From the NCBI RefSeq assembly GCF_003967035.1, contig NZ_AP018560.1, positions 1,883,001 to 1,947,000 of the forward strand: a stretch of DNA of 64,000 nucleotides, in the 5' to 3' direction. This stretch comes from Aerosticca soli. GTDB taxonomy: Bacteria; Pseudomonadota; Gammaproteobacteria; Xanthomonadales; Rhodanobacteraceae. The translations under genes were made by a program, and so were the position numbers. The notes beneath the pieces are model-generated. The model was not told the DNA's origin. It was given only the letters and a program-made list of their open reading frames with translations, and made no database searches. This document shows positions 11,832 through 22,572 of the stretch, in pieces; the first letter of the stretch is position 1; every line of letters starts with the position of its first letter.

Positions 11832-11964
11832 CGGGCGGCTCCGCAACGCAAAGGGCCGCGCATTCTAGCCCGCCGCGGCGGGCGCTCCTGGTGCAACTGC
11901 AGCATACGGCGGTCCGGTCGTCGGCTTGGCTTGACGCCGGTCGGCCCGCGCCCGTAGCCTTGTC

Positions 11965-11988
11965 ATCTTTCAATCGCGATAAATGGAT
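11965..11988. promoter_or_regulatory. Candidate operator: 24-bp interrupted palindrome before the ArsR-metH operon
   Basis: A perfect central 8-mer ATCGCGAT (11973-11980) is flanked symmetrically by ATC (11965-11967) and GAT (11986-11988) and by a T/A pair at 11970 and 11983; 16 of 24 positions are symmetric. It ends six bases before the GTG start of a gene encoding an ArsR-type DNA-binding domain, the usual place for an autoregulatory site. Binding is inference. Confidence 0.45.
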
Positions 11989-11994
11989 ACATAG

Positions 11995-12921
11995 GTGGAT
12001 CTTTCCGCCGCCTCCAACCTGCTGCGCCTGCTCGCCGACCCCACCCGGGTGCGCCTGCTCGCCCTGCTCGAGGGCGAAGAGCTCACCGTCGCCGAACTGG
12101 CGGCGGTGCTGCAACTGGCGCAGCCGCGCGTGTCCACGCATCTGGCCAAGCTCAAGGAAGCCGGTCTGGTGCGCGACCGCCGCGCCGGCGTGTCCGCTTA
12201 TTACCGCGCCAACCACGAGGCGGACGGCTCGACGCAGACGCTGCTGCGCTCGCTGCGCGGCTGTGTCGACGACGCGCTGCTGCGCGAGGATGCCGAACGC
12301 CTGCCCGGCGTGCTCGCCCAGCGCGCTCGCGCCGAAGGCTGGGCCGACACCGTGGCCGGCGACATGGAGCGGCATTATTCCCCGGGGCGCACCTGGGAAA
12401 CCCTGGCCCGCGCGCTGCTGCAGCTCCTGGAAACCGGCGACGTGCTCGACATTGCCTCGGGCGACGGCATCACCGCCGAGCTGCTGGCTCCGCATGCGCG
12501 TTCGATCGTCTGCGTGGATTCCAGCCCGCGCGTGGTGGAGGCGGCCAGCCGTCGCCTGCAGGCATTCGCCAACGTCGAAGTCCGCCAGGGCGACATGCAC
12601 GCGCTCGAACTCGGCGAACGGCGTTTCGATCTGGTGCTGATGCTGCACGCGCTGACCTATGCCGAGCGTCCCGCGCAGGCGGTGGCCGAGGCTGCGCGCT
12701 GGCTGCGGCCGGGCGGCCGCCTGCTCGCCGTAACCCTGGGCCGGCACGACCATCGCGCCGTGGTCGAGCCGTTCGATCATCGCAACCTGGGCTTCAGCGT
12801 GCGCGAACTGGAGGGCCTGGCCACGGCGGCCGGCCTGCAGGTGAGCAGTTGTCGCCGACTGAGCCGCGAGCGCAAGGTACCGCATTTTGAAGTGAACAGC
12901 CTGCTCGCCCATCGACCGTGA
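11995..12921 (+). CDS. ArsR-family regulator fused to a SAM-dependent methyltransferase domain
   Basis: A 308-residue two-domain protein. Residues 1-90 are an ArsR winged helix ([12 protein letters not shown], recognition-helix region [17 protein letters not shown]). It lacks the ELCVCDL metal-binding box, reading ELTVAEL instead, so a metal signal is unlikely. Residues about 145-260 are a class I methyltransferase fold with motif [16 protein letters not shown] (150-164) and [13 protein letters not shown]. The start must be GTG at 11995, because the nearer ATG at 11983 meets TAG after two codons. It is followed after 10 bp by metH, so the likely role is SAM/SAH-responsive control of methionine synthesis, similar to the SahR regulators known from Proteobacteria. 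That role is inferred from context. Confidence 0.88.
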
Positions 12922-12931
12922 GAAAGCACCC

Positions 12932-13993
12932 ATGACCGCCCTGCCCTGGCTGTATCCCGACCGCGTGCGGCGCCTCGAGGAGGCCCTGTGCACGCGCATC
13001 CTGGTCTTGGACGGCGCGATGGGCACGATGCTGCAAGCCCACCACCTGCAGGAAGCGGATTTCCGCGGCCAGCGCTTCGCCGCCGAACATACCGGACACC
13101 CAGGCTGCGAGCTCAAGGGCGACAACGATCTGCTCAATCTGACCCGGCCCGAGCTGGTGCGCGACATCCATGCCGCCTATCTCGCTGCCGGCGCCGACCT
13201 CGTCGAGACCAATACCTTCAACGCCACCCGGCTCAGCCAGGCCGACTATCACCTGGAAGAGCTGGCCTACGAGCTCAATCTCGCCGGCGCCCGCATCGCC
13301 CGCGAGGCCTGTGCGGCCGCCGAGGCGCGTACGCCGGACAAGCCGCGGTTCGTCGTCGGCGTGCTCGGCCCGACCAGCCGCACCGCCTCGCTGTCGCCGG
13401 ACGTCAACGATCCCGGCTACCGCAACGTCACCTTCGAAGAGCTGCGGCTCAACTATGCCGAGGCCCTGCGCGGGCTGATCGAGGGTGGCGCCGAGCTCAT
13501 CATGGTCGAGACCATTTTCGACACGCTGAACGCCAAGGCCGCGCTGTTCGCCCTGGCCGAGGATTTCCGCGCGCGCGGCGCCCGCCTGCCGGTGATGATC
13601 TCCGGCACCATCACCGACCGTTCCGGCCGCACCCTGTCCGGGCAGACCGCCGAGGCGTTCTATTACGCCGTGCGTCACGCCAGGCCGCTGTCGGTGGGAT
13701 TCAACTGCGCGCTCGGCGCCGCCGACTTGCGCCCGCACTTGGAAACGCTGGCGGCGATCGCCGAGTGCCGTGTCAGCACCCACCCCAACGCCGGGCTGCC
13801 CAATGCCTTCGGCGGCTACGACGAAACGCCGGCACAGATGGCCGCGATCATCGGCGAGTTCGCCCGCGAAGGCCTGCTCAACCTGGTCGGCGGCTGCTGC
13901 GGCACCACGCCCGCGCACATCGCCGCCATCGCCGAGGCGGTGGCGGGGGTGCCGCCTCGCGCACTGCCGCAAGCGCAGGAGGCGGCGGCATGA
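12932..13993 (+). CDS. metH: Methionine synthase, homocysteine-binding module (split MetH, part 1)
   Basis: A free-standing 353-residue homocysteine S-methyltransferase domain equivalent to the N-terminal module of single-chain MetH. It holds the zinc ligands Cys259 (GFNCALG) and Cys322/Cys323 (GGCCGTTP), and the N-terminal [10 protein letters not shown] block. It binds and activates homocysteine for methylation by methylcobalamin carried on the partner encoded 52 bp downstream. The gene lies 10 bp after the ArsR-methyltransferase gene. The split is intact, with good start and stop codons, so it is a genuine two-gene arrangement and not a frameshift; the same split is known in xanthomonads. 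Confidence 0.93.
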
Positions 13994-14045: not shown

Positions 14046-16847
<2,802 letters not shown>

Positions 16848-17414: not shown

Positions 17415-17900
17415 TCACCAGCAACCGGCAGGCGTGCGGGCGCCGGTCTGGTCGATGCCGAGCGGCGTGCACGCCGCATCGCGCGATGCCTGTGCGCTGC
17501 CGGCGCGCGCGGTCGCCTGGATCGTATAGGTGGTGTCGGTGGGCTGGCCGGCGGCGAAGGCGTAGCTGTAGTCCGCGCCGGTTTGGCCGTTGGCCGCGCA
17601 ATCGAGGGTGGGCAGCGTGATCGCGTTTTCGCTGGTGTCCTTGCTGTAGCGCAGGTTGGTGGTGTAGTAGCGCTCCATGAAATTGGCATATTCCGACAGG
17701 CAGCCTTCGGCCGCCACGCGCTTGGTCTTGACCACGTGGCGCATGTAGGAAGGCAGGGCGATCGCGGCAAGGATCGCGATGATCGCTACCACGATCATCA
17801 ATTCCACCAAGGTGAATCCGCGCGCACGGGCAGGTGTCCGCGCGGCGTCGCGACGGCCGGCATCCGTCGCGGTGTCTGCATGTGGAAGGCCTTGGCTCAT
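17415..17900 (-). CDS. pilE: Type IV pilin PilE-like (minor pilin) precursor
   Basis: A 161-residue prepilin. The leader ends ...ARARG with cleavage before FTLVELMIVVAIIAILAAIALPSY (Gly28/Phe29, Glu at mature position 5), the type IV pilin N-terminal helix. A short globular domain follows, with a C-terminal Cys pair (DAACTPLG, AGCW) that could close the D-region. The leader is about 28 residues, much longer than the 6-8 usual for type IVa pilins. SD AGGAG lies just upstream and overlaps the stop of pilY1 (8-bp gap), so it is the last gene of the operon. Likely a minor pilin assembled under the PilY1 tip complex. Confidence 0.93.
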   Translation of the reverse strand: MSQGLPHADTATDAGRRDAARTPARARGFTLVELMIVVAIIAILAAIALPSYMRHVVKTKRVAAEGCLSEYANFMERYYTTNLRYSKDTSENAITLPTLDCAANGQTGADYSYAFAAGQPTDTTYTIQATARAGSAQASRDAACTPLGIDQTGARTPAGCW

Positions 17901-17908
17901 CGGGGCTC

Positions 17909-20900
17909 CTACGGGCTGATCAATTCACGCCACGATACACGCTGCAACGCACTGACGGTCGGCGGTGAAAAAGTATTTACGCTGGTATTGGTGCCATTGT
18001 CGAAGCTGACCAGCATATGGCTACCAACGAAGATCGGATTATTGGGTAGCGATGCAAAACCGATACCTGCCGCAGGTTTGTCATTAATCAGGTCGCCTGT
18101 ATCCACATTACCGCTACCGTTGAGGTCGAAGAATACTGCCGAAGGATTGGTTCCCGTGAAAGGATCAATAGCCATGATCCAACCCTTGCCGGAGGGGTTG
18201 CACGCATCGGCGGCCTTCGGGATGCGCGTGGTACCAATCAACAATCCGTTCAGCACGTTCGGCGTCACTATGCGCTCGCCTTGCTGCACGGCTGCGCCAT
18301 CCACCCCGGTCGGCGACAGCAAATCGATGTACCAGCCGGCCTTGCCAGTGATATTAGAAGCATCGGTCAGGGTGGTGACCGTGCGGCCCGGCAGCGTGTT
18401 GGCGTCACCCGCCGTTTCGCTGGTGATCGAGCGTTGTGCCAACGCGCTGCGGTCCTTGTGCGTGGTGCCGTCTACCGCTGGGTGATTGGTGCTGTCGGTC
18501 GAGGAAACGATCAAGCCGTACCAGGTCTGTGTACTCATGTCCGCCAAATCGTCACGGGAAAGATATTTACCCGTGCCAAAAAAGATCCAGACATTCCCGC
18601 TCTGTGGATCCTTGCCTATGCTCATGCCGGCGGTAATCGGCTGCGCGTTGTTGCTACTGTCCGTAGCCGTGAACAGCTTGACGCCGCTGCTGCTGGGCGT
18701 GGCGGTGGCCGTGGTGCTGCCGGTGTTGAGCGTGAACGACCACACGTTGCCATCCGCATCGCCCGCATAAGCCACCGTGCTGATGCCGTTGGCCAGCGTG
18801 CCAATCCACACCGCCGGCGCCGCCAATCCGGTCGTGTCGGTGGTTTGGTGCACGTCGAGCGTGCCGTCGGAAAGCCCGAATTGCAGCAGCGCGGCCTTGC
18901 CGGCAGCGCTGTTGTAGCCATTGCCCATCAATACCGACCAGACGCCATCGGCGGTCTGCGCGATCACCGGCTTGCCGGTCATCTGGCCAATGTAGTTGCT
19001 ATTGGTCTTGCCGTCGCCAGCCGAACGTTCCCACAGGAACTGGATATTGGTCGGATCAGTGACGTCGAGCGCGTAGACCGATTTGGCCGTACCCTTGCCA
19101 GTGCTACCGACCAGCACGGTGTGCCAGGCGCTACCGAAATAGGCATCGGCCACCGTTAGTTCGCCGTCGTTGAAATACTCGTGTGATACCGTATCCCCGT
19201 AAGCCGGATTGGCCAGATCCTTGAGTCCACTGGTAATCACCGCCCCAGGTAAATAGGCATAAGTTTCCAAGCCACTACCAGCGTCGAAGGCATGTAGAAA
19301 TCCATCGTTGGCAGCTACGTATACCGAAGGTGATCGGGAGGCTTGATCGACGGCGAAGGTGCCATAGCTGGCCGTGCCTGTGAAGGTTTGCATGCCGAAA
19401 AGGTCCAACCCCGGCGCAGCGACATAGATAGGTTGCGAATCGACGATATCACCCAGTGACACCTCGCGAGTCCGGAAACTTCCACCATGAGCCATATCTT
19501 TGGAGCTATCGCCGCGCAAATAATTAATCATATCCGCTTGAGCGCTCGCCGATCCGCCAAGTGCATTCAATTGATCACTGGCAAGTGCCGGCAGACTTCC
19601 GTCAGCCGAAACTTTGAATTCCATATAATCAGTTCCGTTGTAACTCCATATATGCCTGCTGCCTGCAGTCGGCATTCCGGTAGATGCTGTCCATATGGGT
19701 GTCGATCCGATAACCCCAGAGTTTATATTGAAGGCTTTAAGATCACCCGTCCATTTAATGGTGTAGTAATAAGCCTGATACGCTACTGTACCAGTCTGTG
19801 TCTGAGTGGAATTCGCCGCCAAGCTGGCACCGGTGCCTACACGCGAAGAAGCGCGGCGCAAGGCCGAGGTGAGTCCAGCCACAAAACTTTCCGGATCGGT
19901 TGCCGAATAAAAACCACCATGACCATTGACCGCAGCATGAGCAAGGTCGGCAATATTGTATTTACTGTTAGATGCAGGCGTTGGCCAACTGAAGTTTGTT
20001 ATGGGAGATCCCCCGTTGGACCAGGAAAAAATTTGATCTACGGTGGCCGTGCTCGGTGTGATACCCACAGGAGGAAACCCCATGCCCATCGTGAATGTCA
20101 CCATGTGCTGCCAGAAGGCAGGGTCATCCGTATTGGTGGGAACTACATTTGCCGTGCTCGGACGCAGATCAGCCTTCCAGTATTTCATGGCTACGTCGGC
20201 CAAGGTATCGGAGTTTCCGACAGGCGTCACAGTCTGCGTGCAGAACCCCTGATTGGTAGTCAACGTCCAGCCCGCTGAGCAAAAAGGCGTTTGGGTTGGA
20301 TTTGTACCTTTCTTGCATATATACGTGCTGCCAACAAGTGTTCGGGTATAACCCGAATCACATGATGAATTGACAGTTTGCAGATACGGCGTCAAATTTA
20401 AATCGGTGTAAGGCAGTGCGGGCGTATAAGTGTAGCTATTACCATTCGGGTTGGATATGGCCGATCCGACCGTGCCGTCCTGGTCGCCGATGCCCGAAGG
20501 TGCAGTATCATCGTTCCAGAACCCGTCCGTAGTCAGAATGGTATAGGACTGCCGACATGCTAGTTCCTTGTGCTCATTCTCGGCATAATTGGGGTCGGAT
20601 GACATCGTGGTCCACGGCTGATCTGTTTTATAGTATTGACCTACCGCATCCAACGCATTGCGCAACGGCGTTTCACCATTGGCCGCAATACTGGTTACCC
20701 AATTCCAGAAACTTGCTTTCTGCGTACCTGAAGAGCCATCGCCAAGTGGCTGAACCTCGGCGACTTTCACATTGGTTGCGCCAAAGGTTGCATTCAATGT
20801 GGGCAGGTTACTGTTGTTTTGACCATTGATGGATCCGAACCCGACACGGAACTTACTATCAAGCCCCGCGAAGGTTCTCAATAAACCGGTCTTAGCCATC

Positions 20901-21919
20901 AGTAACCGAGTTCGATAATAGGAATACCAGTTGGCGATATTTTGTCCCGCCTTCACCCCGACAGGAGCAGCGACGCCTGAAATATCATTCTCGTTTACAC
21001 AATTTGCCTGATCCGCGGCATTGAACAACAAATTGCATTGGGTGCCCGAAGCAACATAATGCACCTGGTAACCTCCGATGGGTCCAGTTACATAGGTAAA
21101 ATATGATTTATAGGTCCAGTTGACACAGACACCCAGGTAAAGACTTCCCGACGCGCAACCCAAACTTTTCGCAGCCACCGGATAATGGCAAAGACCATCC
21201 GCCTGGAGCGTGGTTCCGCCTGGACACGTCATTCCTACATGATTGGCCGCATACCAGGTGTCAACGGGAGTGCCCTCGACCCATACCCGATGTCTGCACA
21301 TGGAACTTACGGGACCATAATCGCCCGAGTTACATTTCCAAGTATCCGTAGGCGCCACGGGATCACGGATGCATTGTGTCGGATCGGCTGGATTTTCATG
21401 ATAATTCGTCGCACAGCGAACGATCGGCGGACCAAGATCGGTCTTGCTGACCGGTAGATTCGTGTAATAATACAACGTGTGACTACCATCGGCACTGTCA
21501 TAATAAGTGGTTATATTCTGACTATGCGTCGTGTCCAGATAAGCGTCCTTGTATGCCGACGTCAATCCCGGAGAATTGGGATACGGCGTACCATTCGCAT
21601 GCACAGGCAGGGTATAAAGGATGGTTGGGTTGTAATAAATTCCATTGACGTTGGAATTCCTAGCTCCGTTAGCGCTTTGATCGGCTAGATAACCCCAATC
21701 CGGCATGAAATCGTAATTCATGGAGCCCGAATCATCCAGCATGAGCATCATGTTGGGCGGTAACGTGATCTGAACAATCAGCGGTGACGGATCTATAGTG
21801 ACTTCCGTCGCCTGCGCCAACGGCGCGATGAAAAAACCCAGCATCAATACCAGCAGACTGCTGCCCAGCAGTCGCCCGAGGACGGACACGGCCCTGCGCA
21901 TTAATCGATGCAAATGCAT
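17909..21919 (-). CDS. pilY1: Type IV pilus tip adhesin / assembly factor PilY1
   Basis: A 1336-residue exported protein with signal peptide (residues 1-37, ending PLAQA). A von Willebrand A-like segment starts with a MIDAS motif LDDSGSM (61-67). A cysteine-rich stretch at about 165-290 follows, and a C-terminal PilC/PilY beta-propeller (about 830-1300) contains GDADGNVW near 1051 and an EF-hand-like DLNGSGNVDTGD loop near 1263 that should bind calcium. It caps the pilus, promotes adhesion and counters retraction. The start at 21919 has GGAG eight bases upstream and gives a clean signal peptide; an ATG at 21961 overlapping the pilX stop (TGATG) is an alternative. About 18.5-21.9 kb is visibly AT-richer than all neighbours. 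Confidence 0.95.
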   Translation of the reverse strand: MHLHRLMRRAVSVLGRLLGSSLLVLMLGFFIAPLAQATEVTIDPSPLIVQITLPPNMMLMLDDSGSMNYDFMPDWGYLADQSANGARNSNVNGIYYNPTILYTLPVHANGTPYPNSPGLTSAYKDAYLDTTHSQNITTYYDSADGSHTLYYYTNLPVSKTDLGPPIVRCATNYHENPADPTQCIRDPVAPTDTWKCNSGDYGPVSSMCRHRVWVEGTPVDTWYAANHVGMTCPGGTTLQADGLCHYPVAAKSLGCASGSLYLGVCVNWTYKSYFTYVTGPIGGYQVHYVASGTQCNLLFNAADQANCVNENDISGVAAPVGVKAGQNIANWYSYYRTRLLMAKTGLLRTFAGLDSKFRVGFGSINGQNNSNLPTLNATFGATNVKVAEVQPLGDGSSGTQKASFWNWVTSIAANGETPLRNALDAVGQYYKTDQPWTTMSSDPNYAENEHKELACRQSYTILTTDGFWNDDTAPSGIGDQDGTVGSAISNPNGNSYTYTPALPYTDLNLTPYLQTVNSSCDSGYTRTLVGSTYICKKGTNPTQTPFCSAGWTLTTNQGFCTQTVTPVGNSDTLADVAMKYWKADLRPSTANVVPTNTDDPAFWQHMVTFTMGMGFPPVGITPSTATVDQIFSWSNGGSPITNFSWPTPASNSKYNIADLAHAAVNGHGGFYSATDPESFVAGLTSALRRASSRVGTGASLAANSTQTQTGTVAYQAYYYTIKWTGDLKAFNINSGVIGSTPIWTASTGMPTAGSRHIWSYNGTDYMEFKVSADGSLPALASDQLNALGGSASAQADMINYLRGDSSKDMAHGGSFRTREVSLGDIVDSQPIYVAAPGLDLFGMQTFTGTASYGTFAVDQASRSPSVYVAANDGFLHAFDAGSGLETYAYLPGAVITSGLKDLANPAYGDTVSHEYFNDGELTVADAYFGSAWHTVLVGSTGKGTAKSVYALDVTDPTNIQFLWERSAGDGKTNSNYIGQMTGKPVIAQTADGVWSVLMGNGYNSAAGKAALLQFGLSDGTLDVHQTTDTTGLAAPAVWIGTLANGISTVAYAGDADGNVWSFTLNTGSTTATATPSSSGVKLFTATDSSNNAQPITAGMSIGKDPQSGNVWIFFGTGKYLSRDDLADMSTQTWYGLIVSSTDSTNHPAVDGTTHKDRSALAQRSITSETAGDANTLPGRTVTTLTDASNITGKAGWYIDLLSPTGVDGAAVQQGERIVTPNVLNGLLIGTTRIPKAADACNPSGKGWIMAIDPFTGTNPSAVFFDLNGSGNVDTGDLINDKPAAGIGFASLPNNPIFVGSHMLVSFDNGTNTSVNTFSPPTVSALQRVSWRELISP

Positions 21920-21960
21920 GACAATGTGCTCCGAATGTCGATACGCTGCAGTTGTAGACA

Positions 21961-22572
21961 TCACGAACCTAACTTGACCATAGTCTGCAAGAAGACGACC
22001 GAGCGATTGCCGATTTCATCTGGCGGCGCGCTGCGCACGGTGATGCGGTAATACTTGCTACCGTTCTGCTGTGGCACGCACGGCGCGCCATAACTATTGC
22101 ATGTTGCATTTTGTTGTTGCCCGCCAGAGCCAACACCGGTACCTAGATGCTCGACGACGTATTGTGGTTGCCCAGCCGCAAGTGCTCCCGCATCAAACTG
22201 GGTGGGGTCGTTACCGGTGGTTACATTGATAATCTTGCCGGCGGGCAGATTCGGATCATTGAAGGGATTGGCGTAGCAAAGCCCTCCACCGCTGGCCTGG
22301 TCGCATTCGCGCGCGATGGTTTGATCGCTGGCGAGCTTGGCCATCGCCGCGCGCATGCCCGCCTCGGCGGCCTGAAAGGCGACTTGGCGGTCGTAGAGGT
22401 TGGCGGCCATCTTGTTCTGCAAGAGCGTGCCGCGAATGGCCGCCAGCCCGACCAGGGTGATGACGACCAGCAGCACCAGCGCCACGACCAGCGCCACGCC
22501 GCGCTGGCGACGCGACGCCGGCGAACTTGCGCGGCGATGGATGGTGATGGTGTTCGATGCGCGTGTGTGCAT
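21961..22572 (-). CDS. pilX: Type IV pilus minor pilin PilX
   Basis: A 203-residue PilX-family protein. The leader ends SRRQRG, and the mature helix VALVVALVLLVVITLVGLAA is followed by the family block NKMAANLYDRQVAFQAAEAG, which is typical of PilX rather than other minor pilins. Residue +1 is Val instead of Phe and the canonical Glu5 is replaced, as usual for PilX. It starts one base after pilW ends and its stop overlaps the possible upstream start of pilY1. Together with FimT, PilV, PilW and PilE it should form the priming complex at the pilus tip. Confidence 0.93.
   Translation of the reverse strand: MHTRASNTITIHRRASSPASRRQRGVALVVALVLLVVITLVGLAAIRGTLLQNKMAANLYDRQVAFQAAEAGMRAAMAKLASDQTIARECDQASGGGLCYANPFNDPNLPAGKIINVTTGNDPTQFDAGALAAGQPQYVVEHLGTGVGSGGQQQNATCNSYGAPCVPQQNGSKYYRITVRSAPPDEIGNRSVVFLQTMVKLGS

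Follow-up and report, generated by a model that had tools for sequence, protein, structure and literature searches.

Organization of the samR–metH1–metH2 locus

The window, the whole 64,000-nucleotide stretch of Aerosticca soli DNA that we analysed, contains a promoter-like region and a palindrome followed on the plus strand by samR, metH1 and metH2. In window positions, the features are:

11931–11936, plus strand: −35-like element TTGACG
11955–11960, plus strand: −10-like element TAGCCT, at a spacer of 18
11965–11988, plus strand: predicted SamR operator, an imperfect 24-bp palindrome lying 3′ of the −10 element and 5′ of the start codon
11995–12921, plus strand: samR, 308 amino acids, an ArsR helix-turn-helix plus a class I methyltransferase domain
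12037–12174, plus strand: ArsR helix-turn-helix HTH_5 (Pfam), residues 15–60, without the metal-box cysteine
12445–12726, plus strand: methyltransferase core Methyltransf_11 (Pfam), residues 151–244
12932–13993, plus strand: metH1, homocysteine-binding half of methionine synthase (profile matches)
14046–16847, plus strand: metH2, the methionine synthase half with the pterin, cobalamin and activation domains (profile matches)

The samR reading frame begins with a GTG codon. A start at 11965 was ruled out because of an in-frame TAA at 11980, and position 11965 is therefore the first base of the palindrome. Between the end of the samR stop codon at 12921 and the first base of metH1 at 12932 lies the 10-bp gap that a sequence-only reading had placed between a fusion gene and metH; the cobalamin-dependent methionine synthase is split into two genes. 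The ATG at 14046 was picked by eye as the metH2 start, while the domain search ran from 14052. Farther along the window, the minus strand carries a ComP-like minor pilin (17415–17900; PF16732 match) and, adjoining it, a 1351-residue open reading frame (17909–21964) that by eye resembles a PilY1-type pilus protein.

The same gene order was found in nearly all the relatives. Across 109 loci, made up of the best 80 of at least 461 relatives and 29 more that may overlap with them, metH1 lies downstream of samR on the same strand in 108, and in 104 the gap does not exceed 100 bp (longer gaps measure 153, 170, 565 and 565 bp). The sole locus of the 109 with no metH1 match after samR is L069.

Domain architecture of SamR

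Pfam profiles matched HTH_5 (E = 4.8e-16) and Methyltransf_11 (E = 1.2e-20) within SamR, bearing out the earlier description of an ArsR domain fused to a class I methyltransferase fold. The same description held that the metal box is lacking. The 11-residue stretch of SamR that corresponds to the ArsR metal box contains no cysteine, in agreement with the claim, and none is present there across 25 aligned SamR sequences.

The AlphaFold model of SamR (mean pLDDT 84.9, pTM 0.55, residues 115–132 below 50) supports both predicted domains, not their mutual placement. Compared with solved methyltransferases, residues 128–308 of the model align to TleD–SAH with a Z-score of 20.4 and an rmsd of 3.3 over 180 aligned residues. 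Whole-length Foldseek matches had an rmsd of about 20 and were set aside.

A conserved palindrome between the promoter and samR

The palindrome ATCTTTCAATCGCGATAAATGGAT is symmetric at 16 of its 24 positions and ends 6 bp 5′ of the samR GTG, exactly where the sequence-only reading had located it. It also contains the ATC–10 nt–GAT arrangement given for SamR sites in the text of PMC4239095. The bare core ATCGCGAT occurs five times in the window, compared to 2.4 expected, and 7 of 100 shuffles reach that count; we therefore rejected its significance. The evidence for the palindrome is the conservation of the whole element, not of the core octamer.

We searched the 120 bp upstream of samR in the best 80 of at least 461 relatives, a sample drawn mostly from Dyella, Rhodanobacter, Luteibacter and their allies. 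In 79 of these 80, a site differs from ATCYYTNNATCNNGATNNARRGAT at one position at most, with no mismatch in 66 and one in 13. In the remaining relative the site lies 271 bp upstream, bringing the predicted operator to 80 of the best 80. The operator ends 3–6 bp 5′ of the samR start in 77 of the 80; insertions have shifted the conserved operator 271, 61 and 49 bp from the start in L016, L020 and L054, respectively. Among 40 distinct sites, the flanking ATC..GAT and the outer ATC and GAT are invariant, and the central dinucleotide is GC in 30 and AA in nine. By strict text match, the same best 80 of at least 461 relatives have TTGAC located 17 nt before TA[GC]NCT in 57 cases and 18 nt before it in two more.

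Predicted SamR sites in the A. soli genome

A loose initial pattern, allowing three mismatches, returned 62 sites, mostly noise, compared to 12 in the control, and it was replaced by a footprint-derived pattern. The refined motif, at up to three mismatches, has five matches in 2.87 Mb and none for the reversed control. Three of the five precede samR–metH, metK (901789–901812, with the metK profile match from 901834) and metF (728953–728976, with the metF match on the minus strand ending at 728914). The metF site is weak (three mismatches, PWM score 8.1), and it is positioned like the metF sites of relatives. Near the other two matches, C1:654783–654806 and 1947107–1947130, each with three mismatches, no methionine gene was identified, and they may be due to chance.

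The sequence-only reading had looked to metE, metK, ahcY and metF for further copies of the palindrome. Copies stand before metK and metF, and its regulatory interpretation thus survives the half of the preset refutation that concerned copies of the palindrome near other methionine genes; the expectation failed at ahcY, which has no upstream operator in the A. soli genome, and at metE, for which the genome yielded no match. Methionine synthesis in A. soli apparently depends on the cobalamin-dependent MetH.

The ahcY gene (738052–739416, minus strand) is instead preceded by a SAH riboswitch match (739507–739589; 52.3 bits, cut-off 37). Likewise, metX2 has a SAM-I riboswitch and lacks an upstream operator (best PWM score −9.0). 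From this distribution of operators and riboswitches, it therefore appears that SamR would hold metH, metK and metF in A. soli, while RNA sensors would hold ahcY and metX2.

The predicted regulon in relatives

Of 41 genomes, A. soli included, 38 contain a full-length SamR match; G030, G035 and G040, of the same order, contain only a partial one. At up to two mismatches, we found 74 operator sites in 26 genomes, compared to three matches of the reversed pattern (one in G008 and two in G032); G030, lacking a full-length SamR, has no such operator site. By position, 25 sites belong to samR, 20 to metK, 12 to metF, six to metE, five to ahcY and three to metX2, with three unassigned. One of these last lies 252 bp upstream of a PF01053 (metB-type) gene, so that 72 of the 74 sites in the 26 genomes are upstream of methionine genes; the other two are at G002:C4:440280 and G029:C1:1290888. 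Since the regions upstream of samR served to train the motif, the 25 sites there cannot count as independent of it, and the independent evidence consists of the 47 sites at other methionine genes.

In a weight-matrix scan, scores of at least 8 were obtained upstream of metK in 23 of 25 genomes, metF in 17 of 26, ahcY in five of 26 and metX in none of 25, compared to eight of 3082 shuffled windows. We therefore rejected canonical metX as a SamR target (no site in 25 of 25 genomes). G029 has SamR and no metK site. In nine of the 26 genomes metF has no site of its own, in part because the gene is positioned behind metK–ahcY, as are the site-less copies of G028 and G031–G034. A metE match exceeds the cut-off in eight genomes, of which G008 and G010 have no site within two mismatches upstream of the gene. 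The predicted sites in relatives widen the published SamR regulon.

Operators stacked on riboswitches

In five of the 26 genomes (G001, G004, G008, G010 and G025), a predicted operator is located at the ahcY promoter, upstream of the SAH riboswitch, whose match starts 11–65 nt after it. The sequence directly 3′ of the operator is ATAAT in three of these genomes, ACAAT in G010 and ATACTT in G001, as if the operator abutted a −10 element. Weaker sites with the same arrangement occur in G014 (PWM score 5.5) and G011 (2.6), and G012 has one scoring below zero.

Four genomes of other families, G031–G034, have SamR and carry metK, ahcY and metF on the same strand with 84–294 bp between profile matches. 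Their metK operators score 25.6, 21.3, 33.1 and 9.2, and a riboswitch scan with stricter filters gave no SAH riboswitch match in them. G028 is the only riboswitch-bearing genome of the 26 with the metK–ahcY–metF order; G030 has it as well, without a riboswitch, a full-length SamR or an operator. The placement of ahcY behind an operator-bearing metK in riboswitch-free genomes is a pattern and not a test, because the filters lose weak riboswitch matches and the genomes are related.

Other riboswitch classes are joined by predicted operators too. For metX2 (G025, G026 and G027) and metB (G028), 33–38 nt separate the end of the operator from a SAM-I riboswitch match. At metE, all six operators fall within the 5′ end of a cobalamin-riboswitch match; because of this overlap, the inverted repeat there is probably, though not certainly, in part an RNA structure. 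Searching the full-text literature for a joint operator and riboswitch at ahcY matched only the main text of PMC4239095. The predicted ahcY operators in five of 26 genomes and the candidate metX2, metB and metE operators at riboswitches go beyond that text.

Comparison with SamR, SahR and MetJ

SahR, reportedly described by Novichkov et al. in 2014 and summarised in PMC4239095, resembles the A. soli protein in combining an ArsR helix-turn-helix with a methyltransferase-like domain and in its SAM-cycle targets. The sequence-only reading had named it as the nearest precedent; it is indeed a related regulator, but the exact precedent is SamR, which Leyn et al. (2014; PMC4239095) predicted in Xanthomonadales as a distant SahR homologue. 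In that account, samR precedes metH1–metH2 and a 24-bp palindrome lies in their common upstream region; PMC5343134 lists SamR with four genomes and 17 sites, and the literature search also led to PMC11774046. The A. soli protein agrees with published SamR in being of the ArsR family with about 30% identity to SahR, in its place before metH1–metH2, in its upstream 24-bp palindrome and in having metK and metF among its predicted targets. It differs in a smaller set (samR–metH, metK and metF only) and in belonging to Rhodanobacteraceae, whereas the paper covered four Xanthomonadales genomes; moreover, the sites in relatives include ahcY, which the text of PMC4239095 excludes. Judged by sequence, the A. 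soli gene is SamR, a further case of the predicted family: a strongly conserved putative regulator, now seen in one more family of that order. Among the papers that the full-text search brought up, none reports experiments on SamR, in a literature with few subscription journals.

Unlike the 20-bp palindrome of SahR, the A. soli site measures 24 bp and has conserved ends ATC and GAT; and while ahcY belongs to the SahR core regulon in the text of PMC4239095, the A. soli ahcY has no operator. The same text places SahR in two gamma-proteobacterial groups, and PMC8877191 reports a sahR mutant of Ensifer aridi and gives SAH, by citation, as the effector in Desulfovibrio. MetJ likewise acts on methionine and SAM synthesis genes, but its operators are tandem AGACGTCT boxes, and published accounts of it concern other gamma-proteobacterial groups.

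Of the 398 genomes sampled from the phylum, 90 have a match to the SamR profile with an E-value of at most 1e-30. The ten matches of this order have E-values of at most 5.3e-154, and the 80 of other classes range from 3.7e-53 to 2.0e-39; from their architecture and the published distribution, we infer that the latter are SahR. Elsewhere in the class, no match at this threshold is listed for the 398 genomes, with the best five candidates per genome scored, and because of this restriction the result is no evidence that SahR is absent from the class. In an alignment of 25 SamR and the best 20 of the 80 SahR-type sequences, the two types are 23–38% identical to each other (mean 32%). A single branch divides them, with FastTree local support of 1.0 on one side of the midpoint root and 0.57 on the other. 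Invariant positions common to both include D152, G156, G158, D175, D200, H251, H262, G266 and F267, and type-specific ones include D157, H218, T221 and N264. Motif I reads SGDG in SamR and TGTG in the SahR type; GDG loops also occur in ordinary methyltransferases, and we rejected this difference as undiagnostic of the ligand.

Proposed mechanism and alternatives

The reading that we prefer, with a probability of roughly 0.8, is that SamR binds 11965–11988, blocks samR–metH1–metH2, acts on metK and metF, and senses SAH and/or SAM with its methyltransferase-fold domain. The ArsR domain, presumably as a dimer, would bind the 24-bp operator; dimerization and a ligand are both presumed here. SamR bound just downstream of the −10 element would block transcription of samR–metH1–metH2, a repressing action suggested by the operator's position and by SahR, and it would also act on metK and metF elsewhere in the genome. 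By homology with SahR, the methyltransferase domain likely senses SAM or SAH: either or both, bound in the cofactor pocket, would change DNA binding in step with the state of the SAM cycle. As to which, we slightly favour SAH as an inducer, as in SahR, a choice that we hold at about even odds.

The metabolite could instead be SAM acting as a corepressor, which would make SamR a MetJ-like end-product repressor, differing from the preferred reading in ligand and direction only. The fold of MetJ differs from that of SamR. SAM was the suggestion of Leyn et al., argued in the text of PMC4239095 from the exclusion of SAM-cycle genes except metK from the SamR regulon; that text also named the effector as an open question in 2014. 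The constancy of metK, unmatched by any target besides samR–metH, speaks for SAM, as do the sites upstream of metX2 and metB, which occur in four genomes from other families, and the A. soli ahcY, which has its own SAH riboswitch and no operator. However, ahcY carries an operator in five of 26 genomes and stands behind an operator-bearing metK in G031–G034; consequently, the published argument from ahcY lying outside the regulon is weakened, and the question of the SamR ligand is reopened. Canonical metX, untargeted in 25 of 25 genomes, also counts against SAM, and SahR, the relative with a reported ligand, responds to SAH. Taken together, we regard SAM corepression as somewhat less likely than SAH induction. 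The stacking of operators on riboswitches cannot separate SAM from SAH, because either ligand would duplicate one RNA sensor. One predicted repressor over three riboswitch classes offers a compact natural system for comparing how protein and RNA sensors of SAM, SAH and B12 divide their task.

Two further explanations concern what kind of protein SamR is. The conserved motif I glycines, D175 and D200, together with H251 and H262 (invariant in the 25 SamR and 20 SahR-type sequences) and H253 (conserved in SamR only), would suit a working enzyme with regulation as a second role. But gene order and operators tie SamR to regulation, and its nearest relatives of described function are regulators in the text of PMC4239095, making an enzyme improbable. 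Automatic annotation would name SamR an ordinary ArsR/SmtB metalloregulator, since the family model NF033788 (‘metalloregulator ArsR/SmtB family’) matches it at 82.3 bits, above the cut-off of 55. The missing metal-box cysteine, the methyltransferase domain, and neighbours and sites that are methionine genes leave that name scarcely credible.

A bolder and rather unlikely extension of the preferred reading is that SamR could be a DNA-level sensor of methylation potential, with SAM and SAH competing for one pocket and thereby setting a shared level for the methionine cycle, stacked over the SAH riboswitch of ahcY, the SAM-I riboswitches of metX2 and metB and the cobalamin riboswitch of metE. 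If so, ahcY in several genera would be controlled by an AND gate in which protein and riboswitch read the same metabolite pair.
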